From Faecalibacterium prausnitzii (GTDB taxonomy: Bacteria; Bacillota; Clostridia; Oscillospirales; Ruminococcaceae), in assembly GCF_003287495.1 (NCBI RefSeq), contig NZ_PRLE01000006.1, forward strand, positions 1 to 64,000: a stretch of DNA of 64,000 bases, read 5' to 3'. Below, piece by piece: positions 26,001-61,984 of this stretch; within the stretch, counting starts at the first letter, position 1; every line of letters begins with the position of its first letter. Both the position numbers and the translations under genes were made by a program. The notes beneath the pieces are model-generated. The model was not told the origin of the DNA and ran no database searches. It saw only the letters and a list, made by a program, of their open reading frames with translations.

Positions 26001-26042
26001 TGTCCCTGAGCGGATTCGAACCGCTGGCCTTTCGCTTAGGAG
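26001..26042 (-). pseudogene. 3' half of host tRNA-Arg(CCT), left junction of the element
   Basis: On the minus strand, CTCCTAAGCG (anticodon loop and start of the 3' stem strand), then GCGAA, a T arm AGCGGTTCGAATCCGCT and the acceptor strand CAGGGAC. Upstream (to the right) the sequence turns into element DNA, so the tRNA has no 5' half here. The missing half is at 61943-61984: TTCGC pairs with GCGAA and GTCTCTG with CAGGGAC. Integration in the anticodon arm split the gene. Confidence 0.9.
26033..26042. repeat. attL core CGCTTAGGAG
   Basis: Ten-base core identical to 61850-61859 (inside the element's intact tRNA) and 61943-61952 (right host junction). It covers the anticodon loop of tRNA-Arg(CCT). 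The sequence left of it is host and right of it is element. Confidence 0.85.
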
Positions 26043-26179
26043 TATGGCTTACCATGTGATACACGGTTCGGATGTAACTTCCAATATCATCCCTTACACA
26101 GAATGACTTGTAGTAAACGAACTTTATGGTGCAAAACACCTATTCTGACGCAGTTTTATGCGTCCGTTGGGTGGTCCTA

Positions 26180-26199
26180 TTAGCAAATTCTTAGCAAGA
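26180..26199. repeat. Candidate integrase arm-binding repeats, left end
   Basis: Two direct copies TTAGCAAAT (26180-26188) and TTAGCAAGA (26191-26199), 11 bases apart. Three more copies lie at the right end (61642-61703). Their presence only near both ends fits arm-type sites. The rest of 26043-26280 has no gene. Confidence 0.55.
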
Positions 26200-26280
26200 G
26201 GCCATCCCGCCAAAGTTGATTGCTACTGCCATTCTTCATTCCCTTAGTTAAAATGACAAGGCAAATACATGGAGGTTACT

Positions 26281-26478
26281 ATGAACAAGAAAGAGAAAAA
26301 GTCACTGCCGGAACCGCGCACATACACCGTGGAACAGATTGCGGCCATGCTCAATATCGGCCGCACGACCGCATATCAGCTCGTCAAGCAGGAGGAGTTC
26401 AGGATCGTCCGCATAGGAAATGCGATCCGCGTTTCCAAGAAATCTTTTGACGAGTGGCTGGAAAGTTTGGAATTGTGA
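26281..26478 (+). CDS. Excisionase-like helix-turn-helix protein (left copy)
   Basis: A 65-residue MerR-like protein: TYTVEQIAAMLNIGRTTAYQLV forms the winged-helix reader, followed by FRIVRIGNAIRVSKKSFDEWLESL. It is closely similar to the Xis at 60006, but no integrase follows; a terminator comes directly after. The ATG at 26281 is preceded by GGAGG. It may act as a second recombination directionality factor or be a relic of another element. Confidence 0.75.
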   Translation: MNKKEKKSLPEPRTYTVEQIAAMLNIGRTTAYQLVKQEEFRIVRIGNAIRVSKKSFDEWLESLEL

Positions 26479-26489
26479 ATATTGCAAGA

Positions 26490-26526
26490 AACGCCGTAGG
26501 CTCAAAAAACCTATGGCGTTTTTTTA
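26490..26526 (+). terminator. Terminator after the left excisionase-like gene
   Basis: Stem AACGCCGTAGG / CCTATGGCGTT (one G-T) followed by T7. It isolates this gene from the following ICE genes. Confidence 0.85.
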
Positions 26527-26551
26527 TACCCATTTTTGAAGGAGGCTGGCA

Positions 26552-27073
26552 ATGAAACTGACAGAAGCAGAAATGAGGATGGTGTTTCAGATTGAAAGTA
26601 CCAATCAGAACGCCGCCCTGAATGAGATTTACATGACATGGCGCTATGCGCCGAACCCGGCAACGAAAGAAACGGCGGAAGGCCTTCTGGACAAGCTCTG
26701 TCCCCTGTCGGATCAGGAGTGCATGGATTTGATCCGCAAAGTGCAGGCCGAATACCGTCTGCCGGAGAAAGCCCGCACCATCGGAGAAATGCTGGCAGAA
26801 GCCAGACAGCAATCCGGGGCGCAGAAGTTATCCGGCCATGACATTATGGCTTTGGAGCGTTTTGACCCGGCAACCAGACACATGATCGTCTTTGATGTTC
26901 TTACCCATGACTCGCCTGTTGGCTGGAAAGGTGAGAAAATGCGCCTGTTCCTGACTGACGCCGGATACAGCAAGGCTTTGGAGAATCAGGAACAGGGGCA
27001 CATCAAAATCCGTAGCCATGCGAAGGTGCTTTCCGGCGACCTCTACTATGACCATAAAGACCGTGAGAGGTAG
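26552..27073 (+). CDS. ICE accessory protein of unknown function
   Basis: A 173-residue soluble protein, acidic at the N-terminus (MKLTEAEMRMVFQIES), with no motif that I recognise. It resembles a hypothetical protein usually found at this position in Tn1549-like elements of gut Clostridia; that memory is not tested here. GAAGGAGG precedes the ATG. Bases 27074-27243 after it hold no clear gene. Confidence 0.6.
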   Translation: MKLTEAEMRMVFQIESTNQNAALNEIYMTWRYAPNPATKETAEGLLDKLCPLSDQECMDLIRKVQAEYRLPEKARTIGEMLAEARQQSGAQKLSGHDIMALERFDPATRHMIVFDVLTHDSPVGWKGEKMRLFLTDAGYSKALENQEQGHIKIRSHAKVLSGDLYYDHKDRER

Positions 27074-27243
27074 CCGTCCCCCAAATGTATCAAAATCAGT
27101 GGGATATCTTCTGTTTCTTCCTCTGTGGCTTGCGTTCTGAACAGGGCGTGGATGTTTTCCCATGCAGGAGAAAACGGAGGCATACAGACGGATAAACCGC
27201 TCAAAATCAACACTTTTTATTTTCACAGGAAGGAGGTGCGAAG

Positions 27244-28140
27244 ATGGCTGTTTTTCGTATTGAAAAGACCCGTGATTATACGGTCATGTCAAACCATCAC
27301 TTGAAAGATCGGACGCTGACCCTGAAATCCAAAGGGCTGCTGTCCATGATGTTGTCGCTCCCTGACGAGTGGAATTACACCACCAGAGGTCTTGCGGCGA
27401 TCTGCCGGGAAGGTGTGGACAGCATCGGTGCGGCATTGAAGGAGCTGGAAAACCACGGGTATATCCGGCGCACCCAGCTTCGGGATGAAAAAGGCAAGAT
27501 CACGGATACCGAGTATGTCATTTACGAAATGCCTCAGTGCGAACCGCCGTCAAGCCCAGGTACGCCTTTACCGGGTACGGCAAAGCCATATACGGAAAAC
27601 CCGGATATGGGTATCCCGGATACGGCGGAACCGTGTACGGAAAACCCCGCACAATTAAATACTAATCAAACAAAGACTGATTTATCAAGTACGGAGATAT
27701 CAAATCCTATCCAATCAAATCCCCCTACCCCCGCAGGGGCAAGGATGGGAATGGATCGGATGGGAGCCAGAGAATGTTATCGTGAAGTGATTTTGGATAA
27801 CATCGAGTACAGCTATCTGGTGCAGGACAATCATATCGACCGTGAGCAGCTTGACGAGATCGTTGACCTGATCGTGGATACCGTGTGTTCTGCCCGCAAA
27901 GTCATCCGCATCGCCGGAGACGATTATCCGGCGGAGGTGGTAAAGTCCCGGTTTATGAAGCTGGACAGTTCCCATGTTCAGTATGTCATGGACTGTATGA
28001 AGGACAACACCACCTATGTCCGCAATATCAAGAAATACCTTCTGGCGGCGCTGTATAACGCCCCGACCACCATCAACAGCTACTATTCTTCCCTGGTGCA
28101 GCACGATATGTACGGGGACGGGCAAAGGGGGCGAGGCTAA
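27244..28140 (+). CDS. Replication initiator-like winged-helix protein (DUF6017 type)
   Basis: A 298-residue protein. The N-terminal domain (FRIEKTRDYTVMSNHHL, LKSKGLLSMMLSLPDEWNYT, GLAAICREGVDSIGAALKEL) is the RepA/DnaD-like winged helix common to Tn1549-type ICEs. The low-complexity middle (about 100-170) is rich in P, T and N. The C-terminal region starting NIEYSYLVQDN is the DUF6017-type domain. It likely starts replication of the excised circle. AGGAGGTG lies before the ATG. Confidence 0.75.
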   Translation: MAVFRIEKTRDYTVMSNHHLKDRTLTLKSKGLLSMMLSLPDEWNYTTRGLAAICREGVDSIGAALKELENHGYIRRTQLRDEKGKITDTEYVIYEMPQCEPPSSPGTPLPGTAKPYTENPDMGIPDTAEPCTENPAQLNTNQTKTDLSSTEISNPIQSNPPTPAGARMGMDRMGARECYREVILDNIEYSYLVQDNHIDREQLDEIVDLIVDTVCSARKVIRIAGDDYPAEVVKSRFMKLDSSHVQYVMDCMKDNTTYVRNIKKYLLAALYNAPTTINSYYSSLVQHDMYGDGQRGRG

Positions 28141-28632
28141 ATGCAAGAGGAAGTAACGCGGGGCGCCGTAACGCTCATTGTTGACGGAGCCAAGCTAAGC
28201 GAGCAAGTCTTTGAAAAAGCCGTCAAAAAATTCCTGGAGGAAATCCAGAAAAGCCAGAAGCCCAAAATCTACCGCGGCAGGCAGAGCCTTAAACAGCTTG
28301 CCAGCCAGAACGCCGGTCTTGCCAATATCGAGATCAGTGACAAGAATATCAAGGCTTTCTCCCGTGTGGCGAAAAAATACCATGTGGATTTTGCCTTGAA
28401 GAAAGATACCGCCGCAGAGCAGCCCCGTTACCTGGTCTTTTTCAAAAGCCGGGACGCGGATGCCATCACAGCGGCATTTCAGGAGTTTGCCAGCCGCAAA
28501 ATGAGCCGTGAGAAAAAGCCCTCCATCCGGGAGCGGCTGACCCAGGCGAAGGAACAGGCGGCGGAGAAAACGGAACACCGCACCATTGACCGGGAGAAAG
28601 TAAAGGTCAAAGATCGGAGCGTGCAGAGATGA
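28141..28632 (+). CDS. PcfB family (DUF3801) conjugation protein
   Basis: A 163-residue protein with KPKIYRGRQSLKQLASQNAGL and ISDKNIKAFSRVAKKYHVDFA, the PcfB/DUF3801 core, and a charged coiled-coil tail (SIRERLTQAKEQAAEKTEH). PcfB of pCF10 helps dock the relaxosome to the coupling ATPase. It begins one base after the replication gene and overlaps virD4 by four bases. Confidence 0.85.
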   Translation: MQEEVTRGAVTLIVDGAKLSEQVFEKAVKKFLEEIQKSQKPKIYRGRQSLKQLASQNAGLANIEISDKNIKAFSRVAKKYHVDFALKKDTAAEQPRYLVFFKSRDADAITAAFQEFASRKMSREKKPSIRERLTQAKEQAAEKTEHRTIDREKVKVKDRSVQR

Positions 28633-29594
28633 ACATGAAAAAAATGTTTTTGCTGAACCTTCCGTATCTCCTGTTCGTGTATCCCTTCGATAAGCTGGCA
28701 CAGGCTTTTCGGCTTGCGCCCGGCGCTGACCTCTCCGACAAGCTGCTCTCCATTGGGGACGGCTTCACGGCAGCCCTTTCCTCCCCGTGGCTCAGTTTCC
28801 ATCCCACGGACCTGCTGATCGGTATAGCCGGTGCGGTGGTCCTTCGCATGGCGGTCTACCTGAAAGGCAAGAACGCTAAGAAGTATCGCCACGGGATCGA
28901 GTATGGTTCTGCCCGCTGGGGTACGGCGGCAGATATCGCTCCCTACATGGACAAGGACTTTTTCCAGAACATCCCCATGACGCAGACGGAACGGATTACG
29001 ATGGCGAGCCGTCCAAAGCAGCCGAAGTATGCCAGAAATAAAAACATTCTGGTGATCGGCGGTTCCGGCAGCGGCAAGACGCGGTTCTTCTGTAAGCCGT
29101 CGCTGCTGCAAGCTCATTCGTCCTATGTCTGCACTGATCCGAAAGGAACCTTGCTGCCGGAGATCGGCACTTTCCTGGAGCGGAAGAAATACCGTATCAA
29201 ATGCCTCAACCTGATAAACTTCCGAAAATCCATGAAATACAATCCACTGGCTTACATTCGGTCAGAGAAAGATATCTTAAAGCTGGTGAACGCACTGATT
29301 ATGAACACGAAGGGCGAAGGAGAAAAATCTTCGGAAGATTTCTGGGTCAAAGCAGAACGCCTCTATTATTCCGCACTGATCGGCTACATCTGGTACGAGG
29401 CCACGGAGGAAGAAAAGAACTTCATCACGCTTCTGGACCTGATCAATGCCAGTGAAGCCAGAGAGGATGACGAGACTTATCAAAGCCCGGTGGACCTGCT
29501 CTTTTCTCAGTTGGAAGAACGGGAGCCGGACCACTTCGCCGTGAAGCAGTACCGCAAATTCAAAATGGCGGCGGGTGATATATGCTCTAAGTGA
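28629..29594 (+). pseudogene. virD4: VirD4/TraG coupling ATPase, C-terminal half missing
   Basis: The open frame gives 321 residues against about 600 for the family. Two N-terminal membrane segments, YGSARWGTAADIAPYM, Walker A VIGGSGSGKTRFF (about 139-151) and CTDPKGTL are present. After KQYRKFKMAAG the frame runs a few codons into the nested element and stops. Walker B and the rest of the ATPase are not found anywhere in the window. The coupling protein is therefore inactive. Confidence 0.85.
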
Positions 29595-29648
29595 CTTCTT
29601 AATCATGATTTTGTCATGGTTAGTGAAGCAATCACTTAGAGCATTTTT
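29583..29648 (+). terminator. Hairpin at the left end of the nested element
   Basis: TGCTCTAAGTGA (29583-29594) pairs perfectly with TCACTTAGAGCA (29632-29643) around a second imperfect stem (TAATCATGA/TCATGGTTA), then TTTTT. It can stop transcription coming from the interrupted virD4 before the recombinase gene. Confidence 0.7.
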
Positions 29649-29666
29649 GTTTCAGGAGGTACAGCC

Positions 29667-31547
29667 ATGAGAAATGAAAAAATTACCCCACTGTACGAGC
29701 GCCTGAGCCGGGACGATGAGTTACAGGGCGAGAGCAACTCCATATCCAACCAAAAACAGATGTTAGAGGATTTTGCCCGCCGGAACAGGCTGCCCAACCC
29801 TACGCACTTCACCGATGATGGTATCTCAGGCACCCGTTTTGACCGCCCCGGATTTTTGGCAATGATGGAGGAAGTGGAGGCAGGGCGTGTAGAGGCAATC
29901 GTCATCAAGGACATGAGCCGGTTAGGACGCGACTATCTGAAGGTCGGTCAAGTTATGGAGGTTTTGCGGCAGCGAGGCGTTCGTCTGATTGCCATCAACG
30001 ACGGTGTGGACAGCCTGAAAGGCGATGACGATTTTACCCCGTTCCGCAACATTATGAATGAATTTTACGCCCGTGATACCAGCCGGAAAATCCGCTCTGT
30101 TTTTAAGTCAAAAGGCATGAGTGGCAAGCACCTGACCGGCACTGTGATTTACGGCTACTTATGGGACGAAAAACGGGAGCATTGGCTGGTAGATGAGGAA
30201 GCTGCCGAAGTGGTACGCCGTATCTTCTCCCTCACGCTGGAGGGATATGGGCCTTATCAGATCGCCTGCAAATTATCCACAGACCGGATTGAAATTCCTG
30301 TCGTACACCTTGCCCGCTTCAACGAGGGTGTGAACCGTTCAAAGCCGGTCAAAGACCCCTATGGATGGGGATCATCTACCATCGTGAACATTTTGAAAAA
30401 ACGAGAGTATTTAGGGCATACCATCAATTTCAAGACCCGCAAGCACTTTAAGGATAAGAAAAGCCACTATGTTTCTGAGGACGAATGGACGATCTTTGAG
30501 AATACCCATGAAGCCATTATCGACCAGCAGACCTTTGATTTGGCGCAGAAAATCCGCAGCAATGTACGGCGTTATCCAAACGGCTGGGGCGAAGCGGCTC
30601 CCCTCACAGGATTGCTCTATTGTGCCGATTGCGGCGGCAAGATGTATGTCCACCGCACCAACAATGGCAAGAGGATTTCTCAATATACCTGTTCCAATTA
30701 TACCAAAGTTCCGTGTGGGACACTATGCCATACACAACACCGTATCAATGAGAGTGCTGTTCTGACATTGGTTTCCGACACGCTCCGGGCTATCGCTGAA
30801 TATTCCAAAAATGACCGGACGGAATTTATTCACACCGTTCAGGAAACGCAGGTTGCCCAACAGAGTGCCGATATAGCGAAAAAGCGCAGGCGTCTGGCCG
30901 CTGCTCAAAAGAGAGCCGGAGAACTGGAAAAACTGATTTGCAAAATCTATGAGGACAATGTCCTCGGCAAGCTGCCGGATGCACGATATAGGGCGCTTGA
31001 TGCACAGTATGCCAAAGAGCAGGACGCACTTGAGATTGAAATTGCGGAGCTGGAAAAGGCTGTTACCGGCTACGAGCAAAGCCAGAAATCAGCGGAGAAA
31101 TTTATAGCCCTGATTGATAAATACGAGAATTTTGACACGCTGACAAACACCATGCTCAATGAGTTTGTAGAGAAAATCCTTGTCCACGAACGCGCCCGAA
31201 AAGGCAGTCAGGACACCACGCAGGAAATTGAAATCTACTTCAATTTTTTAGGACGCTATATCCCACCATCCTTACAGCCGGTTCCTTTAACCCCGGAGGA
31301 ACAGGAAGAACTGCGGAAAAAAGAAGAACGCAAGGACAGGCTTCATCAGAATTATTTGAAGCGGAAAGCCAGCGGCGCACAGAAACGGTATGAGGACAAA
31401 ATCAAGGCGAAGAAAAAAGCGGAAATGGACGCTAAGAAAGCCCTGATCCGGGCTGAGGATATGAAAAAAGGCGTTTTTTCTACTGTCGGACAGCTGCCGA
31501 AAGAAGAACCACGCAAAGGCAGCATAGCAGCCAGCGCAGCAGTCTAA
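29667..31547 (+). CDS. Large serine recombinase (TnpX-like)
   Basis: A 626-residue recombinase. The resolvase catalytic domain (about 1-150) holds LYERLSRDDE with the nucleophilic serine near residue 11, and DMSRLGRDYLKVGQ. A recombinase domain follows, then a zinc ribbon (LLYCADCGGKMYV, YTCSNYTKVPCGTLC) and a long coiled coil (about 400-480). Such enzymes integrate and excise elements through short GA-type cores. TCAGGAGG precedes the ATG. Confidence 0.93.
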   Translation: MRNEKITPLYERLSRDDELQGESNSISNQKQMLEDFARRNRLPNPTHFTDDGISGTRFDRPGFLAMMEEVEAGRVEAIVIKDMSRLGRDYLKVGQVMEVLRQRGVRLIAINDGVDSLKGDDDFTPFRNIMNEFYARDTSRKIRSVFKSKGMSGKHLTGTVIYGYLWDEKREHWLVDEEAAEVVRRIFSLTLEGYGPYQIACKLSTDRIEIPVVHLARFNEGVNRSKPVKDPYGWGSSTIVNILKKREYLGHTINFKTRKHFKDKKSHYVSEDEWTIFENTHEAIIDQQTFDLAQKIRSNVRRYPNGWGEAAPLTGLLYCADCGGKMYVHRTNNGKRISQYTCSNYTKVPCGTLCHTQHRINESAVLTLVSDTLRAIAEYSKNDRTEFIHTVQETQVAQQSADIAKKRRRLAAAQKRAGELEKLICKIYEDNVLGKLPDARYRALDAQYAKEQDALEIEIAELEKAVTGYEQSQKSAEKFIALIDKYENFDTLTNTMLNEFVEKILVHERARKGSQDTTQEIEIYFNFLGRYIPPSLQPVPLTPEEQEELRKKEERKDRLHQNYLKRKASGAQKRYEDKIKAKKKAEMDAKKALIRAEDMKKGVFSTVGQLPKEEPRKGSIAASAAV

Positions 31548-31573
31548 TCATCACGAAGCAAAGGAGAATGAAT

Positions 31574-31927: not shown

Positions 31928-31943
31928 ATGGGAGGTGCGGGAA

Positions 31944-32243: not shown

Positions 32244-32270
32244 TATAGAAATGCCAGAAGGAGGCCGCGA

Positions 32271-33657: not shown

Positions 33658-33662
33658 TCAGC

Positions 33663-39943: not shown

Positions 39944-39996
39944 CTTGTTTACAAGGGCGCACTTATACACCGTTGCCGGTGCTGTGCGCCCTGCCG
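39944..39996 (-). other. oriT of the nested element (pIP501/RSF1010-type nick region)
   Basis: On the minus strand TATAAGTGCGCCCTTGT matches the TAAGTGCGCCCT nick consensus known for MobQ-type relaxases such as pIP501 TraA. A small dyad (CCCTTG/CAAGGG) lies next to it, and AGGGCGCAC is repeated in inverted form at GTGCGCCCT about 20 bases on. It is directly upstream of the MobQ gene. Nicking is inferred from family knowledge. Confidence 0.7.
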
Positions 39997-40134
39997 GGGG
40001 CATTGCGTACTTCGTCCGCGATGGGGCGCTACACTCCCCAAACCCCTTGTGCGCCCCGCGCAGCCAAACACCCGCTTCGCGTTTGTTCGGCTCCACGGAG
40101 CCTGAAATATCCCCGCCGAAAGGAGGTGCCACCC

Positions 40135-41571
40135 ATAGATTTCTGTCATATCCCCGTCAGTATTATCAAGCGCAGCGCAGGCCGTTCTGCTGTTGCCGCA
40201 GCTGCTTACCGCAGCGGAACCAAGCTGACAAATGAATGGGACGGCATGACCCACGACTACACCCGGAAAGGCGGCATTGTTCATGCGGAGATCATGCTGC
40301 CTGCCCACGCGCCGCCGGAATTTGCAGACCGATCTATCCTCTGGAACAGCGTGGAGCAAATCGAGAAAGCAAGGGACAGCCAGCTTGCCCGCGAGATTGA
40401 AGCAGCCCTGCCCCGTGAACTGTCCGGCGAAGAGCAGCTTGCCCTTGTGCGTGCCTATGTGAAGGACAACTTTGTAGACAAAGGAATGTGCGCCGACTTT
40501 GCTATCCATGACAAGGGAACCGGCAACCCTCATGTCCATATCATGCTGACGCTCCGGCCTCTGAAAGAAAATGGACAGTGGGGCGCAAAGTGCCGCAAGG
40601 CATACGACCTGGACGAAAACGGCCAGCGTATCCCGGACGGGAAAGGCGGCTGGAAGAACCACCGGGAGGACACCACCGACTGGAACGACAAAGGAAATGT
40701 GGAGATTTGGCGGGCGGCATGGGCGGCCTGCACCAACCGGGCATTGGAGGCCGCCGGTCATCCCGCCCTGGTAGACCACCGCAGCTACAAGCGGCAGGGC
40801 ATTGATAAGATTCCCTCTGTCCATCTGGGGCCAGCCGCCAGCCAAATGGAAAAGCGCGGCATCCGCACCGACAAGGGTGAAGTAAACCGGCAGATCGCCG
40901 CCGACAACAAGCTGCTGAAAGAAATCAAAGCCCGCATTACCCGTCTTTATCTCTGGTCGAAAGACGAAGCGGAAAAACCACAAACGCAGCAAAGCAGCTT
41001 GACCGCCTTGTGGGAAGCCCAGCAGCAGTTGAACGCTCCCCGCACCCGCACCGGCAAAATCCGGGCTTTGCAGGAAAGCGCTGCACTATTCAGCTTTTTA
41101 CAGGCAAACGGCATCCAGTCTATGCAGCAGCTTCATGAAAAAATCGCTGATATGAACAGCCGTTACTATGACCTGCGGGGAAAGATCGTCAAGGCCGAGC
41201 GCCGGATCACTACCCTTACCGAGCGCGGGGAGATGTGGAAACAGTACAACCAGTACAAGTCCATCCACAAGCAGTTTGCCAAAGTAAAGCCGGAAAAACG
41301 GGAACAGTTTGAACAGCGCCACAGCCGGGAACTGATTCTGTATGACGCAGCGGCCCGGTATCTGAAAGAACTGAAAGACAGCGGCGAGGCAATCACCCCA
41401 AAGGCATGGCAGCTGGAAATTGACCAGCTGGCCGCTGGAAAGCAGACGGACACGCTTGCCATGAAAGCCATGCGGGAGGATTTGAAAGCAGTGGAACGGC
41501 TCCGCAAAACCGCCGAGCAGTTGTCCCGACAGGAACTGGACAAACCTCACGACCGGGAACCGGAGCGGTAA
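40135..41571 (+). CDS. mobA: MobA/MobL (MobQ) family relaxase with probable ATA start
   Basis: A 478-residue relaxase. SIIKRSAGRSAVAAAAYRSG is the MobQ N-terminal motif and NPHVHIMLTLR holds the metal-binding histidines (about 135-145). The C-terminal third is coiled coil. The only start near the strong AGGAGGTG (40121-40128) is ATA at 40135; no ATG, GTG or TTG lies at a suitable distance. Upstream ATGs would add an R/P-rich stretch that overlaps oriT. It should nick the adjacent oriT and mobilise the element. Confidence 0.85.
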   Translation: MDFCHIPVSIIKRSAGRSAVAAAAYRSGTKLTNEWDGMTHDYTRKGGIVHAEIMLPAHAPPEFADRSILWNSVEQIEKARDSQLAREIEAALPRELSGEEQLALVRAYVKDNFVDKGMCADFAIHDKGTGNPHVHIMLTLRPLKENGQWGAKCRKAYDLDENGQRIPDGKGGWKNHREDTTDWNDKGNVEIWRAAWAACTNRALEAAGHPALVDHRSYKRQGIDKIPSVHLGPAASQMEKRGIRTDKGEVNRQIAADNKLLKEIKARITRLYLWSKDEAEKPQTQQSSLTALWEAQQQLNAPRTRTGKIRALQESAALFSFLQANGIQSMQQLHEKIADMNSRYYDLRGKIVKAERRITTLTERGEMWKQYNQYKSIHKQFAKVKPEKREQFEQRHSRELILYDAAARYLKELKDSGEAITPKAWQLEIDQLAAGKQTDTLAMKAMREDLKAVERLRKTAEQLSRQELDKPHDREPER

Positions 41572-48068: not shown

Positions 48069-49412
48069 TTATTCCAGTTCATGCCGCCGCTGTTGTTCCT
48101 GTTCCTTTGGAACGGTCAGCAGCGCATCCACATTCTGCTTAACGGTATCGTATTCCTGGGCTTCGGTTCTTGCGGCTTTGTATTCAGCAAGGAGCCGTTC
48201 CTTTTCTGCGGTGAGATTGGCAAGCTCCGTTTTCATGCTTTCCGTTGTCGGCAGCGGCACAGCCCCCAGCCGTTTCAATTCTCTGGCGGCCGCTTCAAAA
48301 AGGATGATCGCGCTCTCATGCCCCCGCAGGAACTTTTCTTTATCATTCGATTTACGGTATCGGTCATAAAGTGGCTTTAGCTGACGGTAAGTGCCGGCGT
48401 GCTTCATCACAAGGGTAAGTTCGGCACTTCTGCTTTCTACCCGCTTGATTTCTGCATGAGCGGTATCCCTGCGTGCGGATACTGCGGTCAGTTTGCTTTC
48501 CAGTTCTCCATAACTGCTTATCCCGTGCTCGGTCAGGAAATTCATGGTCTTGGCGGCCTGTTTCAGATTGTTCAGCTTCGCCCAATGGGTGAAGCCTGCG
48601 CTCTGCTGCGCCTTGATATTGTTCTGGATATCAATGAGCAGGCTGATCTTTCCGTTTTGCTGTTTCGGCTGGCGGGAAGGTCTGGAGCGTCCGGCGATCC
48701 GGGCGGCAAGGGCTTCTTCGGTGTAGTCCACACCAAGGGTTTTCAGACGGGTGAATCGTTTCTGATCCGGCGCTCTGGCGGAGATATATTTGCCCCGCTT
48801 GATCTCATAGCCTTCTCTCTGCAGGCGACGAAGCAGTTCTTCTAAATCGGAACAGGCTGGCAGGAGCCAGTCAATGGCCGCTTTCAGCTTTGCCTTATAG
48901 CTGGTGCCGTTCTGCGTGGCCTGATGTTCAATATAGCTCTTGCCCTTGTCCTGTCCAGGAATAATGACAGACAGACCATGTTCCTTGCAAAGCCGGTCGG
49001 AGGTGCGGCGGATATCGTGATAGCTTCGCTTGTTGGAATGATAGTGCTTATGATCCGCAAAGCTGACTGCATTGAAAATCAAGTGGTTATGAACATGATC
49101 TTTGTCTATGTGGGTGGTAAGTACAAATTCATACTTGCCGCCCAGGATTTCTTTTGCGAGCTCCATGCCGAGCTCATGGGCTTGTTCCGGCGTAACCTCC
49201 CCAGGCTGAAAGGCTTGGATCAGGTGACGGCCCAGGTTCGTTCCCTTGTCGATGGCATGGCAGCGGGTCCAGGAAAATTCGATATCCGCAGTTTCGGCGG
49301 CACAGCCATAGGAAGAAACAAGCAGCTTTCCGTCCGTCTTTTCCGGGTTGCAGATATACTCAATGGCTGCTTTCAGCGTTGATTTGATAGGATGTGTCTT
49401 TGTAACTGCCAT
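48069..49412 (-). CDS. ICE relaxase (Tn1549/VirD2-like MobP type)
   Basis: A 447-residue relaxase. The catalytic tyrosine is probably in the first 20-40 residues (IEYICNPEKT). The histidine triad is TTHIDKDHVHNHLIFNAVSF (about 113-132). The C-terminal half is coiled coil. It nicks oriT and pilots DNA. The MobC gene upstream overlaps it by 40 bases. Without a coupling protein it depends on another element. Confidence 0.9.
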   Translation of the reverse strand: MAVTKTHPIKSTLKAAIEYICNPEKTDGKLLVSSYGCAAETADIEFSWTRCHAIDKGTNLGRHLIQAFQPGEVTPEQAHELGMELAKEILGGKYEFVLTTHIDKDHVHNHLIFNAVSFADHKHYHSNKRSYHDIRRTSDRLCKEHGLSVIIPGQDKGKSYIEHQATQNGTSYKAKLKAAIDWLLPACSDLEELLRRLQREGYEIKRGKYISARAPDQKRFTRLKTLGVDYTEEALAARIAGRSRPSRQPKQQNGKISLLIDIQNNIKAQQSAGFTHWAKLNNLKQAAKTMNFLTEHGISSYGELESKLTAVSARRDTAHAEIKRVESRSAELTLVMKHAGTYRQLKPLYDRYRKSNDKEKFLRGHESAIILFEAAARELKRLGAVPLPTTESMKTELANLTAEKERLLAEYKAARTEAQEYDTVKQNVDALLTVPKEQEQQRRHELE

Positions 49413-55819: not shown

Positions 55820-55821
55820 CT

Positions 55822-57558
55822 ATGAGCAGATTACAAAAAGCTCTCTTTTTATCAGACAAAGGTTACGCAGATCTGAAAAAAGCAATCTTCGCCTGCACAT
55901 TGACGAACTTGGCTATGCTTCTTCCGTTCTGTGTAACTGTTATGATTTTCAGTGAAATTCTGACTCCCTTTGTCAATGGCGGCTCCATTCAGTGGAACCA
56001 TATCTGGATGCTGTGGGGCGCGGGTATTGTTTCGGCCATTCTGGTATTTCTGGCTGCCAAAAACGATTACCGCAAAACCTATATTGCCTCATATAAAGAG
56101 TCGAACACGACCCGGCTTCGGATTGCGGAGCATCTGCGGAAACTTCCGATGAATTTCTTTAACACCAAGGACCTTTCTGAACTGACCACAAATATGATGG
56201 CAGATTGCAGCAGCATGGAATCCCTGCTCAGCAGCACGATCCCTCCGCTGATTGCAAACGGCATCACGGTGACCCTGACCTGCATCCTGCTGGCCTTCTT
56301 TGACTGGCGGCTTGCTTTGTGCGTATTTATCACGGTTCCGATTGCCTTCCTCATTATCTGGCTCAGCCGGAACCATCAAAAGAAGCTGTTTGAAAAACAG
56401 GTTGACGCAAAGCTGGCTGCTTCTGACCAGGTACAGGAATACTTGGAAGGCATGAAGATCATCAAGTCCTGCGGGCTGTCCGGTTCTCATTTCAGCGCGC
56501 TGGATAAAGCTCTGTTAGCAATGAAAAAAATCGCCATCAAAGTGGAGATGGCTGTCGGCGTGTTCATGTCCAGTGCAAGTATGATTTTGCAGGCTGGCAT
56601 CGGTATCACGATTTTTGTTGGCGCTATTCTTCTAACACAAGGACAGATTGAGCTTCTTCCTCTGCTTATGTTCCTGCTGATGGTCACACGGATTTATGGA
56701 CCGATCCTGGCGATCCTGGCGAACCTGTCCTCACTGCTGAATTTGAATGTGGTCACAAGTCGTATGCGTACCCTGCTCACTACCCCTGCGATGGACGGTG
56801 AAGGAAAAAAGGTCCCGAACTGCGATATTGAGCTTTCCCATGTGACCTTTGCCTACAATCAGGAAGATGTCATCAAAGATGTTTCTTGTAAAATTCCCCA
56901 GGGGAGCGTGACTGCTCTTGTTGGCCCGTCCGGCTCCGGTAAAAGCACGATTTCCAAACTGATTGCCCGGTTTTGGGATGTTCAGCAGGGAAAGATCACC
57001 GTGGGCGGAAAAGACATTAAGAGTATGGAGCCGGAAAGTCTCATGTCTTATATGTCCTTCGTGTTCCAGGATGTGACCCTGTTCAATGATACGGTTATGA
57101 ACAATATCCGTCTTGGCAATCCAAACGCAACGGACGATCAAGTAATTGCTGCGGCCAAAGCCGCCTATTGTGATGAATTTGTCCGGGAAATGCCGGACGG
57201 GTATCAGACGGTCCTCGGTGAGAACGGCAGCACTCTTTCCGGCGGTGAGCGCCAGCGTATTTCCATCGCCCGCGCATTGCTGAAAAATGCGCCCATTATT
57301 CTGCTTGACGAGGCAACAGCATCCCTTGACCCGGAAAATGAAGTCCTGGTTCAAAAGGCGATTGCCAAACTGGTGGAGGGTAAGACGGTCATTATGATTG
57401 CTCACCGGCTCCGTACAGTTGTAGATGCAGACCAAATCCTCGTCCTTGACAATGGACGGTTGGTAGAGCATGGAACCCACGATGAGCTGATGAAGAAGAA
57501 CGGTCTGTATCATAAGCTGTTCCATATTCAGCAGGAAAGCCTTGGCTGGGCTGTCTAA
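55822..57558 (+). CDS. ABC half-transporter 2, YbtQ/IrtB-like candidate
   Basis: A 578-residue partner of the previous protein: exporter-fold membrane domain, Walker A GPSGSGKSTISK, signature LSGGERQRISIARAL, Walker B IILLDEATASLDPENE. It starts two bases after the first gene ends, as expected for a heterodimer. It may import a metallophore or export a peptide; the operon context favours metal uptake. Confidence 0.85.
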   Translation: MSRLQKALFLSDKGYADLKKAIFACTLTNLAMLLPFCVTVMIFSEILTPFVNGGSIQWNHIWMLWGAGIVSAILVFLAAKNDYRKTYIASYKESNTTRLRIAEHLRKLPMNFFNTKDLSELTTNMMADCSSMESLLSSTIPPLIANGITVTLTCILLAFFDWRLALCVFITVPIAFLIIWLSRNHQKKLFEKQVDAKLAASDQVQEYLEGMKIIKSCGLSGSHFSALDKALLAMKKIAIKVEMAVGVFMSSASMILQAGIGITIFVGAILLTQGQIELLPLLMFLLMVTRIYGPILAILANLSSLLNLNVVTSRMRTLLTTPAMDGEGKKVPNCDIELSHVTFAYNQEDVIKDVSCKIPQGSVTALVGPSGSGKSTISKLIARFWDVQQGKITVGGKDIKSMEPESLMSYMSFVFQDVTLFNDTVMNNIRLGNPNATDDQVIAAAKAAYCDEFVREMPDGYQTVLGENGSTLSGGERQRISIARALLKNAPIILLDEATASLDPENEVLVQKAIAKLVEGKTVIMIAHRLRTVVDADQILVLDNGRLVEHGTHDELMKKNGLYHKLFHIQQESLGWAV

Positions 57559-57582
57559 CCTCTTTAAGCAAGGGAGGTTTTT

Positions 57583-57954
57583 ATGAAACTTCATGCGTCC
57601 GGGGAGGACTATCTGGAGGCCATACTCGTTCTCCATAAGAAGATGGGCATGGTGCGCTCCGTGGATGTTGCCCGGCACCTGGAGGTCACAAAGCCCAGCG
57701 TGTGCCATGCGGTGGCAACCCTGCGGGACGGGGGGTTCCTGACGATGGACAGCGACTATTTCCTGCATCTGACCGATGTGGGCCGGGAAGTGGCGGAGCA
57801 TATCTACGAAAAGCACCGCTTCTTTACCGACCGGCTGATCGAGGCTGGAGTAGACCCTGTAGCGGCGGAAAAGGACGCCTGCCGGATGGAGCATGTTATC
57901 AGCCAGGAGTCCTTCGAGCATCTGAAAAATGCTTACAAAACAAAAGAAGAATAA
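57583..57954 (+). CDS. DtxR/MntR-family metalloregulator of the mobile cargo
   Basis: A 123-residue protein: SGEDYLEAILVLHKKMG, HTH VDVARHLEVTKPSVCHAVATL, and the metal-site region CRMEHVISQESFEHL with the conserved E-H pair. It lacks a third domain. Its recognition helix shares VTKPSV with the host regulator at 11302. It closes the operon and probably represses the upstream dyads. GGGAGG precedes the ATG. Confidence 0.88.
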   Translation: MKLHASGEDYLEAILVLHKKMGMVRSVDVARHLEVTKPSVCHAVATLRDGGFLTMDSDYFLHLTDVGREVAEHIYEKHRFFTDRLIEAGVDPVAAEKDACRMEHVISQESFEHLKNAYKTKEE

Positions 57955-58015
57955 ACTGCCCGCATAGCAAACGGGTGAAACAGTAACGCGGCCGGGCACA
58001 TCGAACCCGACCGCG

Positions 58016-58345
58016 TTACTCGTCTTTCTGGAAGGCTTCCGCCTGTTTGCAGAGTGCGATAAATTTTTCGATCTCTGCTTCGCTTTTCCCGGCAAAGAAG
58101 TCCACGACTGTTTTCGAGACTGTCTGATTTACCATTTCCGGGAAGATGGCGGCGTCCACGCTGATATTCAGTTCTTTGGCGACAAGGACCACCGTTTCAA
58201 ATTTCGGATTACTCTGGCAGGTCTCCAAATCTATGATCGTGCGGGGGTTCATACCGAGGCGTTCAGCTAACTGCTTCTGCGTCATATGCTGGCGCTTCCG
58301 TTCTGACCGCACCTTCCATGCAAATAGATCCAGCGGATTGTTCAC
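58016..58345 (-). CDS. XRE-family regulator
   Basis: A 109-residue protein with an N-terminal HTH (WKVRSERKRQHMTQKQLAERLGMNPRTIIDLE, about 10-41) and an acidic helical tail. Its stop lies in the inverted repeat AGTAACGCGG (57982-57991)/CCGCGTTACT (58011-58020). The upstream region contains AACTCATG-CAAAG-TGAGTTATAACTCAT (about 58395-58425), a likely operator. Confidence 0.8.
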   Translation of the reverse strand: MNNPLDLFAWKVRSERKRQHMTQKQLAERLGMNPRTIIDLETCQSNPKFETVVLVAKELNISVDAAIFPEMVNQTVSKTVVDFFAGKSEAEIEKFIALCKQAEAFQKDE

Positions 58346-58711
58346 TACACATCACCTCTACATCATTGTAGGGTGTGCTTCCGCTCATATAAATAACCAT
58401 ACAACTCATGCAAAGTGAGTTATAACTCATATTTCGGAGTAAAGGGGGATATGGATGAGAGCGCCAACACAAAGGAGGTCAAAATAAGGCGGGGTTTACC
58501 GTTTGTACGGCGGACGCCCATGCCACTACGAAAAATATTCCAATAACGCAGCAGCGAGCCATGCTCATGAAAGTGAGTTATGGCTCGCTTTTTATATACT
58601 GTGGCTCATATCTCACAAAACCCGATTCTTTGAGCGCCTGGGCGTGGGCTGCCGCTCCCCGCCCCGTTTCGTTCCGGCCTGTCAACCCGAACGAAACGAA
58701 AGGAGCCAATT
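58346..58711. other. Regulatory gap between the XRE gene and the sigma-like gene
   Basis: Holds the AACTCAT/TGAGTT operator candidate, a possible 31-residue frame at 58451-58546 (MDESANTKEVK..., weak support) and a terminator AGCGAGCCAT / ATGGCTCGCT with T5 (58553-58595). Another hairpin CGTTTCGTT/AACGAAACG (58666-58699) lies just before the next ribosome site. Confidence 0.5.
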
Positions 58712-59260
58712 ATGAGCGGCAAAATATTTTTTCAGATAGATCCCGAAAACCGGCCAAACCAGACCACTCGTGAACGAGTAGTGAGCGAAAGGGGAAGAAA
58801 AGAACTGCCTCCCGGCACGAAGGGAGGTGAGAATTTGAAACCTGACCGCCACTACGAGCACAAGCAGTACGCCTTTGACAGCTACTGCAAGAAGGTGCTG
58901 AAATGCGAGGCGTGCAACGGCTATCGCCAGATCAGCCGGCACCAGAAGCGTTTCACATCTTTAGAAGAACTGTCCGAGGCAGAAATGGCCCAGCTTGCGG
59001 TATATGACCTCTACCCGTGGGAATACACGCCCTTCCCTGTGGGAGGGGCCGTGATCCTGATCGAGGACGACGGGCTGGCCGAGGCGCTTCTGGGGCTGTC
59101 CCAGGAGGACCGGGAAATCTTTATGATGCACTGGTTCCTGCGGATGACCGACGCACAGATCGCCAGGTACATAAACATGCCCCGCCGGACGGTCAATACC
59201 CGCAGGCATAAAGCCTATCGGCTGCTGACAGAGCTGATGGGAGGTGAAGCGGATGACTAA
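58712..59260 (+). CDS. Sigma-70-family-like ICE regulator (Tn916 Orf7-like)
   Basis: A 182-residue protein. The N-terminal half has a Cys pair (CKKVLKCEACNGY); the C-terminal part (LSQEDREIFMMHWFLRMTDAQIARYINMPRRTVNTRRHKA, about 130-170) is a region 4 HTH. Such proteins activate excision and transfer genes in Tn916-like elements. AAGGAGCC precedes the ATG. It overlaps the next gene by eight bases. Confidence 0.82.
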   Translation: MSGKIFFQIDPENRPNQTTRERVVSERGRKELPPGTKGGENLKPDRHYEHKQYAFDSYCKKVLKCEACNGYRQISRHQKRFTSLEELSEAEMAQLAVYDLYPWEYTPFPVGGAVILIEDDGLAEALLGLSQEDREIFMMHWFLRMTDAQIARYINMPRRTVNTRRHKAYRLLTELMGGEADD

Positions 59261-59495
59261 ATCTGCATGCACGCGGGCATCGCTGATCCCTTACCCGGTG
59301 ATCGCCGCCGCTGTCGGAGGCGACCCCGAAGCGGTGAACCGGGTAGTCCGGCATTACTCCGGCTACATTGCCGCGCTGTCTACACGGACGAGCTATGGCC
59401 CTGACGGCTATCCCCGTCCCCAGGTGGACGAAGATCTGCGCGGTCGGCTGGAAGCAAAGCTGATTATTTCCATCCTGGATTTTGACCTGAGCTGA
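59253..59495 (+). CDS. Small HTH regulator (Tn916 Orf8-like)
   Basis: An 80-residue protein (YPVIAAAVGGDPEAVNRVVRHYSGYIAALS; DEDLRGRLEAKLIISILDF). It matches the small HTH/sigma-anchor-like protein coupled with Orf7 in Tn916-type elements. GGGAGGTG upstream selects the ATG at 59253. Confidence 0.8.
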   Translation: MTKSACTRASLIPYPVIAAAVGGDPEAVNRVVRHYSGYIAALSTRTSYGPDGYPRPQVDEDLRGRLEAKLIISILDFDLS

Positions 59496-59868
59496 TCCAG
59501 GGCCGGGCGCTGCGTGTTCCCCTTTCCACGCGGCGTCCCGTTATAGCTCCTTGACAAAGAAAGCCCGGCGGGAGGCCTCCGGCGCAGCATAAGGCAGACG
59601 GATACGATCTGTCTGTGTGGAGCCGGTCGGCCGGTGCGCCATGACCCTGTTGCAAGTCCGCAGGACGGGACCCCTGCTAAACAGGAGAGCGACAAAACCG
59701 GGCCGTAAAACAGGTGTGGCAGCCTGTGGGCGATGATATGCAGGCAGGATAATGATACTCGCGCATTGAACGCCCGCAAAGCATTGTGCGCCGCACCCAT
59801 CAGCATGGGCCGGGGTTAGACTCCCGTGGAGCTGTGCCAACAGCCGTCCGTAAGCCTACTTATCTTTT
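59496..59868 (+). ncRNA. Candidate structured RNA upstream of xis-int
   Basis: A 370-base GC-rich stretch without a convincing gene on either strand. Clear stems: GGGCGCTGCGTG / CACGCGGCGTCCC, AGACGGAT / ATCTGTCT, GGAGGCCTCC, CCTG-CTAAA-CAGG and ACAGG-TGTGGCAG-CCTGT. It ends before CTTATCTTTTTT. Neither family nor orientation is known to me; the plus strand is chosen for the T run and gene order. It could be a regulatory leader for xis-int or an element-specific RNA. Confidence 0.4.
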
Positions 59869-59920
59869 TTGAAAGTTTATGGATAGATCGTAAACTTTTC
59901 AATTAGCAGCAGACAAACGC

Positions 59921-59985
59921 GGAGCAGCACGGTAAAATAATGGTGGAAGTTATATTACCAACACATATTCGTGCTGTTCCTTTTC
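59921..59985 (+). terminator. Terminator/attenuator before xis
   Basis: GGAGCAGCACG (59921-59931) pairs with CGTGCTGTTCC (59970-59980), one G-T, with an inner GGTAA/TTACC pairing, then TTTTC. It may keep xis-int silent until anti-termination. Another dyad GAAAGTTTA/TAAACTTTTC lies at about 59870-59900. Confidence 0.7.
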
Positions 59986-60005
59986 ATAACTGAAAGGGGG
60001 TTCTC

Positions 60006-60212
60006 ATGTCTCAAACATGGAACGGCACGAAGAAAGAAACCCCTGAAAGAAGGACGTATACGGTTGACGATATTGCTCAAATCCTGGGCATCGGAAGAAC
60101 TTCCGCATATATCCTTGTAAAAGAAGGGCACTTCAAAATCGTGCGAATTGGTAACGCCATACGCATTTCCAAGCGGTCATTTGACGAGTGGCTTGACTCC
60201 CTCGACCTGTGA
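60006..60212 (+). CDS. xis: Excisionase Xis (right copy)
   Basis: A 68-residue MerR-like HTH protein: RRTYTVDDIAQILGIGRTSAYI, then FKIVRIGNAIRISKRSFDEWLDSL. Tn916-type Xis proteins bend att DNA and favour excision. It overlaps the upstream end of the int frame. It is closely similar to the left copy at 26281. Confidence 0.88.
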   Translation: MSQTWNGTKKETPERRTYTVDDIAQILGIGRTSAYILVKEGHFKIVRIGNAIRISKRSFDEWLDSLDL

Positions 60213-60232
60213 TCCAAGAAAGGAAGAACGAT

Positions 60233-61627
60233 ATGGCATCTATAATCAAGCGAAAGAAAAACTATTCCGTTGTTTACAACTATGTGGATGAAAACGGAGA
60301 AACCAAACAGAAGTGGGAAACCTGGCATACCCACAAAGAGGCCTTGAAGCGCAAGGCGGAAATCGAAAATCAGCAGCACACGGGAACTTTTCTCCCACCA
60401 AGCAATCAGACGATCACCGAATTCCTTTATGACTTCGTATCTCTTTACGGAGAAAAGAAATGGGGCGTGTCCATGTATGACAGCCAAACGGCGCTGATTG
60501 CGAACTATATCAATCCGATCATCGGTGATATGGAGGTACAGGCGGTTACTCCCCGTGCGGTTGACGGTTATATCCAGACCTTGCAGAAAACCAAGTCGGT
60601 GTCTACCAAGACCCGAAAGGCCGTTACCACCTATGTCAGCGACAAGACCATTGAAAAAATCATCAAGCTCCTGCGGTGTGCGTTCAAGCAGGCGGTACGA
60701 TGGGAAATCATCGCAAGAAATCCCTTTGACAATGTGATCCTCCCGAAAACGGAGTATGCGAAACGGGATATCTGGACAGCGGATATGATCCGTCTTGCCC
60801 TGGACAAATGCACGGACAGCAAACTCTATGTAGCAATGAACCTTTCCTTCGCCTGCTCTCTGCGTATGGGTGAAATCCTGGGGCTGACCTGGGAGAACGT
60901 CCATATTTCCGATGAAGATATTGCAGCGGATAACGCCTATGTCTACATCGACAAGGAGCTGACACGGGCATCCAAACGGGCGATTGAAACGCTGGGTGAG
61001 AAGGATATCTATTACATCTTCACTCCGCTCATGCCGAACACCAGCACAAGAATTATCCTGAAAAAGCCGAAAACTGACTCCAGTATCCGTAAGGTGTGGC
61101 TGCCGAAAACGCTTGCCTACATTCTGCGGGAATGGAAGAAGTCCCAGGACGAGCTGAAAGGCTTCCTTGGCGACGAGTATCAGGACTTCGATCTGGTCGT
61201 GGCACTTCCCAATGGACGCCCCTGCGAGGATCGGATCATCCTCAAAGAGTTTGCAAAGCTCCGTGAGGACGCAGGGCTGCCGAAGGTGGTCTTTCATTCT
61301 CTCCGTCATTCCAGTACCACCTACAAGCTGAAACTGAACCACGGCGATCTGAAAGCCACCCAGGGCGATACAGGCCATGCCGAGATCGACATGATAACCA
61401 GTATCTATGCTCACATTCTGGACGAGGATAGAAAGGTCAATGCTCAGAAATTCGAGACAGCCTTCTATGCCAAGCCTGATCTTCGCAATGTCCGTCCGCC
61501 GGAGGAACCGGCAAAATCGGAGCCTGCGACCCTGGACCTTGAAAGCCTTGTGGAGCAGCTTCAGAAGTCGCCGGAGCTGGCGAGTGCGCTCGCAGCCCTG
61601 ATAGCGGCGCAAGCCCCGGCAAAGTGA
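60233..61627 (+). CDS. int: Tyrosine recombinase, ICE integrase
   Basis: A 464-residue phage-type integrase. An N-terminal AP2-like arm-binding part (SIIKRKKNYSVVYNYVDENGE) is followed by SAM-like core-binding and catalytic domains. Catalytic residues: R in CSLRMGEILGL, H-x-x-R in HSLRHSSTTYK, H in GHAEIDM, nucleophile Y in SIYAHIL. AAAGGAAG favours the ATG at 60233 over a GTG at 60209. It reads toward attR and tRNA-Arg, so its target should be the CCTCCTAAGCG anticodon region. Confidence 0.93.
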   Translation: MASIIKRKKNYSVVYNYVDENGETKQKWETWHTHKEALKRKAEIENQQHTGTFLPPSNQTITEFLYDFVSLYGEKKWGVSMYDSQTALIANYINPIIGDMEVQAVTPRAVDGYIQTLQKTKSVSTKTRKAVTTYVSDKTIEKIIKLLRCAFKQAVRWEIIARNPFDNVILPKTEYAKRDIWTADMIRLALDKCTDSKLYVAMNLSFACSLRMGEILGLTWENVHISDEDIAADNAYVYIDKELTRASKRAIETLGEKDIYYIFTPLMPNTSTRIILKKPKTDSSIRKVWLPKTLAYILREWKKSQDELKGFLGDEYQDFDLVVALPNGRPCEDRIILKEFAKLREDAGLPKVVFHSLRHSSTTYKLKLNHGDLKATQGDTGHAEIDMITSIYAHILDEDRKVNAQKFETAFYAKPDLRNVRPPEEPAKSEPATLDLESLVEQLQKSPELASALAALIAAQAPAK

Positions 61628-61641
61628 TCCGAAAAATCGAA

Positions 61642-61703
61642 TTAGCAAAACGCAGAATTTTCTTAGCAAATTTCTGAAAAGCGTTCGAGTCCAATTAGCA
61701 AAT
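61642..61703. repeat. Candidate integrase arm-binding repeats, right end
   Basis: Three direct copies TTAGCAAAA (61642-61650), TTAGCAAAT (61663-61671) and TTAGCAAAT (61695-61703). They match the two copies at the left end of the element. Confidence 0.6.
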
Positions 61704-61729
61704 ATACATCATGCGGCGTATAAAAATAT

Positions 61730-61756
61730 CCCGGTAACGGAAGTGAAATTACCGGG
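61730..61756 (-). terminator. Second terminator downstream of the element-borne tRNA
   Basis: Perfect eight-base stem CCCGGTAA / TTACCGGG followed on the minus strand by ATATTTTTATA. It backs up the main tRNA terminator and could also protect int from antisense transcription. Confidence 0.75.
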
Positions 61757-61767
61757 AGAAGGAGGAA

Positions 61768-61806
61768 CAAAAAAACGCTGCAAACCCCGAAAAAAGGCTT
61801 GCAGCG
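61768..61806 (-). terminator. Terminator of the element-borne tRNA-Arg
   Basis: Stem CGCTGCAA / TTGCAGCG (minus strand) followed by T7-T8. It lies 11 bases after the tRNA. Confidence 0.85.
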
Positions 61807-61817
61807 GTGCTTTCTGG

Positions 61818-61891
61818 CGTCCCAGAGAGGATTTGAACCTCCGACCCCACGCTTAGGAGGCGTGTGCTCTATCCAGCTGAGCTACTGAGAC
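61818..61891 (-). tRNA. Complete tRNA-Arg(CCT) carried by the element
   Basis: All stems form: acceptor GTCTCAG/CTGGGAC (one G-T), D arm GCTC/GAGC, anticodon stem CACGC/GCGTG with loop CTCCTAA (anticodon CCT), T stem GGAGG/CCTCT (one G-T) with loop TTCAAAT. The 3' CCA is not encoded. It lies inside the right end of the element, 51 bases from the right host junction, and differs from the host tRNA halves, so it is not a simple duplicate. It should replace the split host tRNA. Confidence 0.93.
61850..61859. repeat. Third att core copy, inside the intact tRNA
   Basis: CGCTTAGGAG identical to both junction cores, here in the anticodon loop of the element's own tRNA. It is therefore a possible alternative recombination site. 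Confidence 0.8.
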
Positions 61892-61942
61892 ATTTATAAG
61901 TTTTATGCAATTTTCACTGCTCGAAGGAATCGAACAATCTGC

Positions 61943-61952
61943 CGCTTAGGAG
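61943..61952. repeat. attR core CGCTTAGGAG
   Basis: Right junction between element DNA (left) and the host tRNA 5' half (right). Identical to 26033-26042. Confidence 0.85.
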
Positions 61953-61984
61953 GCGAACGCTCTATCCAGCTGAGCTACAGAGAC
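61943..61984 (-). pseudogene. 5' half of host tRNA-Arg(CCT), right junction
   Basis: Minus strand: acceptor strand GTCTCTG, D arm with GCTCAGCTGGATAGAGC, anticodon strand TTCGC, loop CTCCTAA. Beyond the core it continues as GCGGCAGATTGTTCGATTCC, which keeps a T-loop-like TTCGATT but cannot pair in the anticodon, T or acceptor stems. The matching 3' half is at 26001-26042. Confidence 0.9.

Follow-up and report, generated by a model that had tools for sequence, protein, structure and literature searches.

What becomes of a host tRNA gene when an integrating element cuts it in two and rebuilds it at neither end is the question raised by a locus of Faecalibacterium prausnitzii (NCBI RefSeq assembly GCF_003287495.1), in which a mobile element splits a tRNA-Arg(CCT) gene within the first 64,000 nucleotides of contig NZ_PRLE01000006.1, the stretch of DNA analyzed here and hereafter called the window. 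We consider it highly probable that the best explanation of the locus as a whole combines integration in the anticodon loop, rescue by a complete tRNA carried by the element, and serial reinsertion of further elements into the tRNA so supplied. Below, L numbers denote loci and G numbers genomes, G000 being the window's own genome.

A host tRNA gene split by an element that carries its own copy

The host tRNA-Arg(CCT) is interrupted in its anticodon loop, and its two minus-strand halves lie at opposite ends of the element (table 1). As the original prediction had it, these distant halves fit each other: the acceptor stem (GTCTCTG/CAGGGAC) and the anticodon stem (TTCGC/GCGAA) pair at 12 of 12 positions. 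The right junction does not restore the gene, again as had been proposed, the sequence that continues after the host 5′ half pairing at only 7 of the 12 stem positions, where simple arithmetic with even base use gives 4.5 of 12 by chance, and at the left junction the host 3′ half adjoins non-tRNA sequence. The host tRNA is rebuilt at neither junction and the common core measures 10 bp (CTCCTAAGCG), a combination that characterizes tRNA-dependent integration; the junction of a host 5′ half with an element 3′ half into a rebuilt tRNA, by which classical islands are recognized, does not occur at the window locus.

The single tRNA that ARAGORN called in the 64-kb window is a complete tRNA-Arg(CCT) situated 51 nt inward of the right junction, which Rfam also recognizes and which is followed by a terminator-like hairpin, in line with the original prediction. 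Upstream of the host 5′ half lies the sole promoter-like site detected within 61600–62200, and a similar sequence precedes the intact tRNA of a relative (L009). The 93-bp module between the junction and the remainder of the complete tRNA is the unit found repeated in other genomes. The decayed stretch after its outer core retains a T-loop-like motif, which suggests that an ancestor of the element restored a 3′ half and afterwards acquired a complete tRNA copy.

In the assembly (2.68 Mb, 19 contigs, rated 100% complete), Rfam finds 58 tRNAs, for 57 of which the anticodon was taken from ARAGORN on fetched stretches, the 58th being the tRNA of the window. Their arginine anticodons are TCT, ACG, CCG, and CCT, and CCT is represented by the element copy alone, so that the genome-wide count called for by the original prediction is one, with no additional intact copy among the 58.

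The complete tRNA tracks the integrase

A search with the element's tyrosine integrase confirmed 151 stretches, of which the best 80 were kept. A complete antisense tRNA-Arg(CCT) lies 152–285 nt (median 196) past the integrase gene in 65 of these 80 loci, and because the same arrangement recurs in them, that of the window is no chance resemblance. The innermost halves, read at 61 of these loci (the regular expression gave no reading for 4 of the 65), form 12 of 12 pairs in 52 cases and 11 of 12 in 4; the five lower values (L056, L066, L073, L078, and L084) are probably misreadings of the regular expression, which was seen for L056 and is assumed for the others. By comparison, none of the 67 outer halves at these loci exceeds 9 of 12 pairs.

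The integrase is 99–100% identical over its full length in 12 of the 80 loci, and 100% identical over residues 139–472 in a thirteenth (L079). These near-identical integrases come from records named Coprococcus, Cuneatibacter, Gemmiger, Clostridium asparagiforme, Hominisplanchenecus, Eubacterium ramulus, Lachnospiraceae, Oscillospiraceae, and others. The complete tRNA is identical to that of the window in 10 of the 12 loci (it is 1 nt off in L019 and interrupted in L016), when the outer 5′ halves vary from host to host. Since the same tRNA stands beside different host halves in different hosts, the complete tRNA travels with the element.

The pairing of these tRNAs is itself conserved. Among 26 distinct integrase-adjacent tRNAs, 99.5% of the 546 pair cells are paired, a share that falls to 30–51% in slid controls, and 111 double changes are counted against 25.5 in shuffles, a contrast inflated by the relatedness of the sequences. 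This set leaves aside 14 of 40 tRNAs (3 were outer halves, and for 11 a neighboring integrase was not shown) and covers neither other tRNA lengths nor other T-loops. That integrase-adjacent tRNAs stay paired while they covary we take as evidence of selection that keeps the element tRNA working.

The association extends beyond one arrangement of genes. In a second layout, the tRNA stands beside genes that resemble, by eye, replication or ParA/ParB genes (L184, L188, L190, L191, and L196), and in G022 the integrase gene of this layout is at the opposite end; L232 is also among the second-layout loci at the same tRNA gene. Given these two layouts, tRNA replacement of this kind may have had more than one origin. 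Of 274 matches in a plasmid search, the 20 listed were for the most part short and tRNA sized, and one match (H1, L143) has a related layout.

Host-specific halves and empty sites

Twenty genomes were screened with a 3′-half pattern and six with a left-end pattern, which four of them matched. The same left end, closing with CATGGTAAGCCATA directly before CTCCTAA, was found beside tRNA 3′ halves in nine genomes, and these 3′ halves differ among the nine, except that G041 equals G049. In eight of the nine, the outer 5′ half and the 3′ half fit each other at 12 of 12 positions, and so do the halves of G050 and G054, which have other left ends. Hybrids of a host 5′ half with an element 3′ half pair at only 8–10 of 12 positions in eight of the nine genomes with a full fit in one comparison set, from which it follows that in most of these hosts an element bringing a 3′ half alone would leave a tRNA with mismatched stems; the exception is G044, where the “host” half belongs to an element-type tRNA and the hybrid accordingly reaches 12 of 12. 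At two loci (L044 and L059), the left end is joined to the module, as in a circle or a tandem. In G043 and G056, the shared left end adjoins a 3′ half that starts with CTCCTAAGGG, when the module starts with CTCCTAAGCG, and the stretch shared in these genomes is therefore 8 nt long. A second copy of the host 3′ half of L128 was also observed in G049 (L129, contig C80), behind a different, unrecognized sequence.

As to possible empty sites, 11 tRNA loci from relatives were read by eye, and in 7 of them one complete CCT tRNA stands alone, without a further half in the ∼400 nt upstream. In addition, the tRNA gene is whole in G006, whereas in G022 it is broken at the core, with its halves 80 kb apart and an integrase-like open reading frame (ORF) at the end where the 3′ half lies; between the two genomes, the 3′ half matches at 47 of 47 bp, and the 5′ half together with its upstream flank at 95% over 1,304 bp.

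Stacked 5′ halves and insertion of element into element

Many loci carry extra 5′ halves outside the complete tRNA, spaced 93 nt apart, with two modules in L013 and four in L017; the spacing differs in other module classes, and as many as six halves are present in a mixed chain (L041) and five in another (L189). The module classes share the 7-nt anticodon loop CTCCTAA and diverge in sequence past it, it being understood that the chain searches demanded TCCTAA or more, so that the constancy of the loop is built in and only the sequence behind it was free to vary. In 20 further chain loci, the innermost tRNA pairs at 12 of 12 positions in all 17 that could be assessed, 3 chains ending at a contig edge, and the outer halves of these 17 reach 1–8 of 12. 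At the scale of the order, a strict 5′-half pattern matches 175 of 394 genomes, its reversed control none, and at least two matches are present in 34 of the 175 by hand count, those of G166, G259, and G362 lying on different strands or contigs.

If elements can also target the tRNA that an earlier one supplied, insertion of element into element is predicted, and one genome, G056, matched this prediction. There, an element's 3′ half is preceded by the left end of another element (L016), and a chain at a second locus (L138) holds the module of the first element and then, inward, a module of another class; the first element ends, on another contig, in a 3′ half with which the outermost 5′ half of this chain pairs at 12 of 12 positions. 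In G044, likewise, the left end adjoins an element-type 3′ half, which is followed by a broken integrase remnant (residues 350–472, 95%). In G043, four like modules, three of them identical, accompany one near-identical integrase and one left end, so that either an element body can disappear and leave its module behind or the repeat can slip. Together, these stacks of tRNA half-genes look like a record of past insertions.

Proposed mechanism and rival explanations

In the scheme that we infer from these data, a tyrosine-integrase element would integrate by strand exchange in the host anticodon loop CTCCTAA, from a circular attachment site (attP) that would read, in order, left end, CTCCTAAGCG, ∼51 nt with a decayed 3′-half relic, complete tRNA-Arg(CCT), terminator, and integrase gene. 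Insertion would destroy the host gene and, in the same step, leave the host promoter in front of the complete element tRNA. Transcription would then run from the host 5′ half through the relic and the element tRNA to the terminator, and RNase P would release a tRNA to be charged. Because its own acceptor and anticodon stems are matched, this tRNA should work whatever the stems of the host, and because its anticodon loop is intact, it would offer a renewed landing site. A later element would insert into the supplied tRNA with a complete tRNA of its own and leave another orphan 5′ half outside, so that the chains of halves would be layered insertion traces, the outermost being the oldest. The sequences directly show how the locus is built, that tRNA and element are linked, that the halves are host specific, that pairing is conserved, and that chains and insertions of one element into another exist; transcription, processing, charging, the chemistry of recombination, and the succession of events are deduced from them.

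This scheme has to be weighed against one in which the element restores its target in the classical manner, with a crossover at the inner core (61850–61859), an element-borne 3′ half alone, and an outer half that is an older, unrelated relic. Such restoration would agree with the direct junction of left end, core, and 3′ half seen in L033 and L016, and it has parallels within the same genome: four distant relatives of the integrase (34–40%; L262, L263, L264, and L265) stand antisense beside two tRNA-Lys(CTT), one tRNA-Lys(TTT), and one tRNA-Arg(ACG) genes, and an extra half is absent upstream of all four within the at most 700 nt searched (∼120 nt in L262, before the contig end). The layout of these relatives looks classical, and they provide within one genome the contrast to 3′-end restoration that had been drawn for the window element. 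At the locus itself, however, classical restoration appears improbable. The 5′ half beside the element 3′ half is constant in 10 of the 12 loci with near-identical integrases (with L019 1 nt off and L016 interrupted), while the outer half, which fits the 3′ half at the opposite end of the element, changes from host to host; L044 and L059 join the left end to the module, and the L016 junction in G056 is accounted for by a second element.

We give still less credence to a tandem pair of host tRNA-Arg(CCT) genes, of which the element would have entered the first copy only and the complete tRNA would be the host duplicate. The 93 bp do approximate a tRNA plus a short spacer, and the module may have begun as such a tandem pair, but the relatives with a single CCT tRNA and the pair formed by G006 and G022 argue against it, as does the fact that the complete tRNA follows the integrase and not the host. 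Concerning the stacks alone, slippage or unequal crossing-over in place of serial insertion is unlikely, although it deserves more weight than either of the foregoing, in view of the three identical modules of four in G043, where one integrase copy and one left end were found. Identical runs of this kind could have formed by slippage or by serial insertion, and either may apply, but several chains (L022, L041, L062, and L189) combine module classes that are unlike in length and sequence, a mixture that slippage cannot yield.

A number of observations also weigh against integration with tRNA replacement. Fifteen of the 80 integrase loci have no complete tRNA directly beside the integrase gene. 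Of these 15, 12 have just a 3′ half behind non-tRNA sequence (four of these left ends, in L016, L033, L038, and L055, were recognized elsewhere by eye), and L075 has no tRNA at all; in L043 and L074, the complete tRNA is ∼2 kb from the integrase gene and not 0.2 kb, possibly through a further insertion between them. In G043, the outermost half was read as fitting the left-end 3′ half at 5 of 12 positions and the adjacent half at 6, and the halves of G047 and G055, as read, fit at 9 and 8 of 12, misfits that we attribute by eye to nesting and a 1-nt insertion. Of the ten genomes with a 12 of 12 fit, five (G041, G044, G045, G050, and G056) have their two halves on separate contigs, so that linkage there depends on the fit. 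The covariation set contains 33 further pair types, a number reached by 42 of 500 shuffles. The match of G006 and G022 around the 3′ half is just 47 bp long, and searches with one flanking protein per side and with flanking DNA found no syntenic empty site for the window locus: the left flank (∼25.5–25.9 kb) occurs elsewhere in G011, with no tRNA in the fetched stretch, and the protein on the right flank is matched well only once (59%, G020). For the joint transcript, minimum-energy folding predicts no full cloverleaf and pairs the host half with the 5′ portion of the element tRNA. Finally, the assembly has a tRNA-Arg(TCT), which may read AGG, and since precise excision would moreover rebuild the host gene, dependence of the host on the element tRNA is unproven.

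Gene content of the element

A Pfam scan of 21 ORFs (20 element ORFs and the integrase) found several ABC-transporter genes and replication genes among them, no virion or phage protein, and, of type IV secretion, only a partial VirD4-like protein. With an integrase and relaxases, the element has the hallmarks of an integrative conjugative or mobilizable element, and its appearance is that of a mobilizable element, or of a conjugative one in decay, with insertions nested inside it. The VirD4-like gene ends after ∼320 residues with a serine recombinase directly behind it (28629–31547), and this truncation, together with the serine recombinase and two different relaxases, suggests that other elements are nested within that of the window.

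Table 1. Features of the element, its tRNA genes, and its junctions in the window.
Feature	Position	Strand	Remarks
Whole element, core copy to core copy	26033–61952		∼35.9 kb
Host tRNA-Arg(CCT) 3′ half	26001–26042	−	No encoded CCA; displaced to left end of element
Core CTCCTAAGCG at start of host 3′ half	26042–26033	−	
Host tRNA-Arg(CCT) 5′ half, with core CTCCTAAGCG at its end	61943–61984	−	Sequence, stem pairing
Complete element-borne tRNA-Arg(CCT)	61815–61891	−	G73, encoded CCA; ARAGORN, Rfam 64.3 bits; 12/12 stem pairs
93-bp module: decayed 3′-half-like stretch plus 5′ half and core of element tRNA	61850–61942	−	
Terminator-like hairpin of element tRNA	61776–61806	−	3 such sites in 601 nt versus 0.9 in shuffles
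Promoter-like site of host tRNA, TTGATT-17-TATTAT	62030–62058	−	1 site versus 0.4 in shuffles
Tyrosine integrase	60209–61627	+	472 residues; convergent with tRNA
Helix-turn-helix, excisionase-like ORF	26269–26478	+	69 residues; named by eye from sequence; left end of element
N-terminal part of VirD4/coupling-protein-like gene	28629–29594	+	
Large serine recombinase	29667–31547		626 residues; directly after VirD4-like gene part
MobA/MobL relaxase	39973–41571	+	
MobA/VirD2-type relaxase	48069–49412	−	
Two TTAGCAA repeats	26180–26197	+	Candidate arm-type integrase sites
Three TTAGCAA repeats	61642–61701	+	Candidate arm-type integrase sites

The TTAGCAA repeats near the element ends may serve as arm-type integrase sites. 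The motif occurs 10 times in the window against 6.95 expected, and 15 of 100 shuffles reach 10, so that only the clustering of five copies near both ends counts, and is suggestive. Three structured RNAs were also observed in the window: a thiamine pyrophosphate riboswitch just beyond the left end (25763–25861, minus strand, 67 bits), an Rfam match to pemK RNA upstream of the integrase gene (59749–59829, 40.7 bits), and a T-box leader (6429–6657) that barely exceeds its gathering score.

Significance and comparison with known systems

A broader reading appears to us somewhat more probable than its contrary: the tRNA-Arg(CCT) gene of many gut Clostridia would be a self-renewing landing pad, and diverse conjugative and mobilizable elements would each have taken up a complete tRNA, need little beyond a 7-nt anticodon loop for integration, swap the working tRNA at each insertion, and leave a layered record. 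Horizontal transfer would thus supplant a cell's working AGG tRNA time and again; where layers have been lost, the newest element may be locked in, since the tRNA formed by its excision beside a foreign half would be mispaired. More generally, mobile DNA could supply and swap a cell's working tRNA gene, the history of insertions could be read from genome sequences as a DNA record, and the wide host range of some tRNA-targeting elements might be explained by the absence of any need to match host tRNA stems.

Several known systems share parts of this arrangement. Islands in the Islander database likewise have ends marked by an integrase and a displaced tRNA fragment, which is a 3′ fragment in 3,760 of 3,919 islands and a 5′ fragment in 159; the crossover is anticodon centered in 2,083 islands, and tandem arrays are known (PMC4383910). 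Those islands restore their target gene, however, whereas the window element orphans both host fragments. In Dehalococcoides, islands accrete in tandem at one ssrA site, where, as in our chains, repeated insertion leaves direct repeats and integrase-less elements; the repeats are 20-bp ssrA 3′ ends in that case (PMC3146451), but a 5′ half plus spacer here, where the working tRNA would moreover be swapped. Tycheposons, too, are tyrosine-recombinase elements bordered by a tRNA gene (PMC10872708).

The closest parallel is the tRNA-dependent lysogeny of the actinophages Fionnbharth, Gabriela, and Gaia, which combine, as here, a tyrosine integrase, a host tRNA that is not rebuilt, and a cognate tRNA carried by the element, with a core of 8–17 bp in the tRNA gene and, in Gaia, a tRNA downstream of the integrase gene (PMC10865867). 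Their requirement for the tRNA was proven by mutants, whereas such a requirement is hypothetical for the present element. Unlike the Clostridia elements, they are phages of Actinobacteria that mostly use tRNA-Lys, the tRNA of Fionnbharth overlapping another gene, and the portions of that study at hand mention neither stacked halves nor a supplied tRNA as a new bacterial attachment site (PMC10865867). Rescue by replacement, as originally predicted for the window, is thus supported by the anatomy of the locus, the linkage of tRNA and element, and the sole CCT copy, but whole-tRNA replacement is already known in principle from phages. Neither of the two outcomes named as contrary to that prediction was encountered, the first of them within a search that yielded no syntenic empty site for the window locus. 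The prediction did not extend to the supplied tRNA as a new target or to the stacking of halves. Our searches of open-access full-text listings found no relaxase elements that replace a tRNA with one placed at the junction and leave a record of stacked halves. As far as this search extends, what is new is that replacement is carried out by relaxase elements without a phage protein among the 21 scanned ORFs, that the tRNA abuts the attachment site behind the host tRNA promoter, and that the supplied tRNA would be a fresh landing site, with chains of up to six 5′ halves. Our observations would extend tRNA replacement from phages to relaxase elements with near-identical integrases in two bacterial families.

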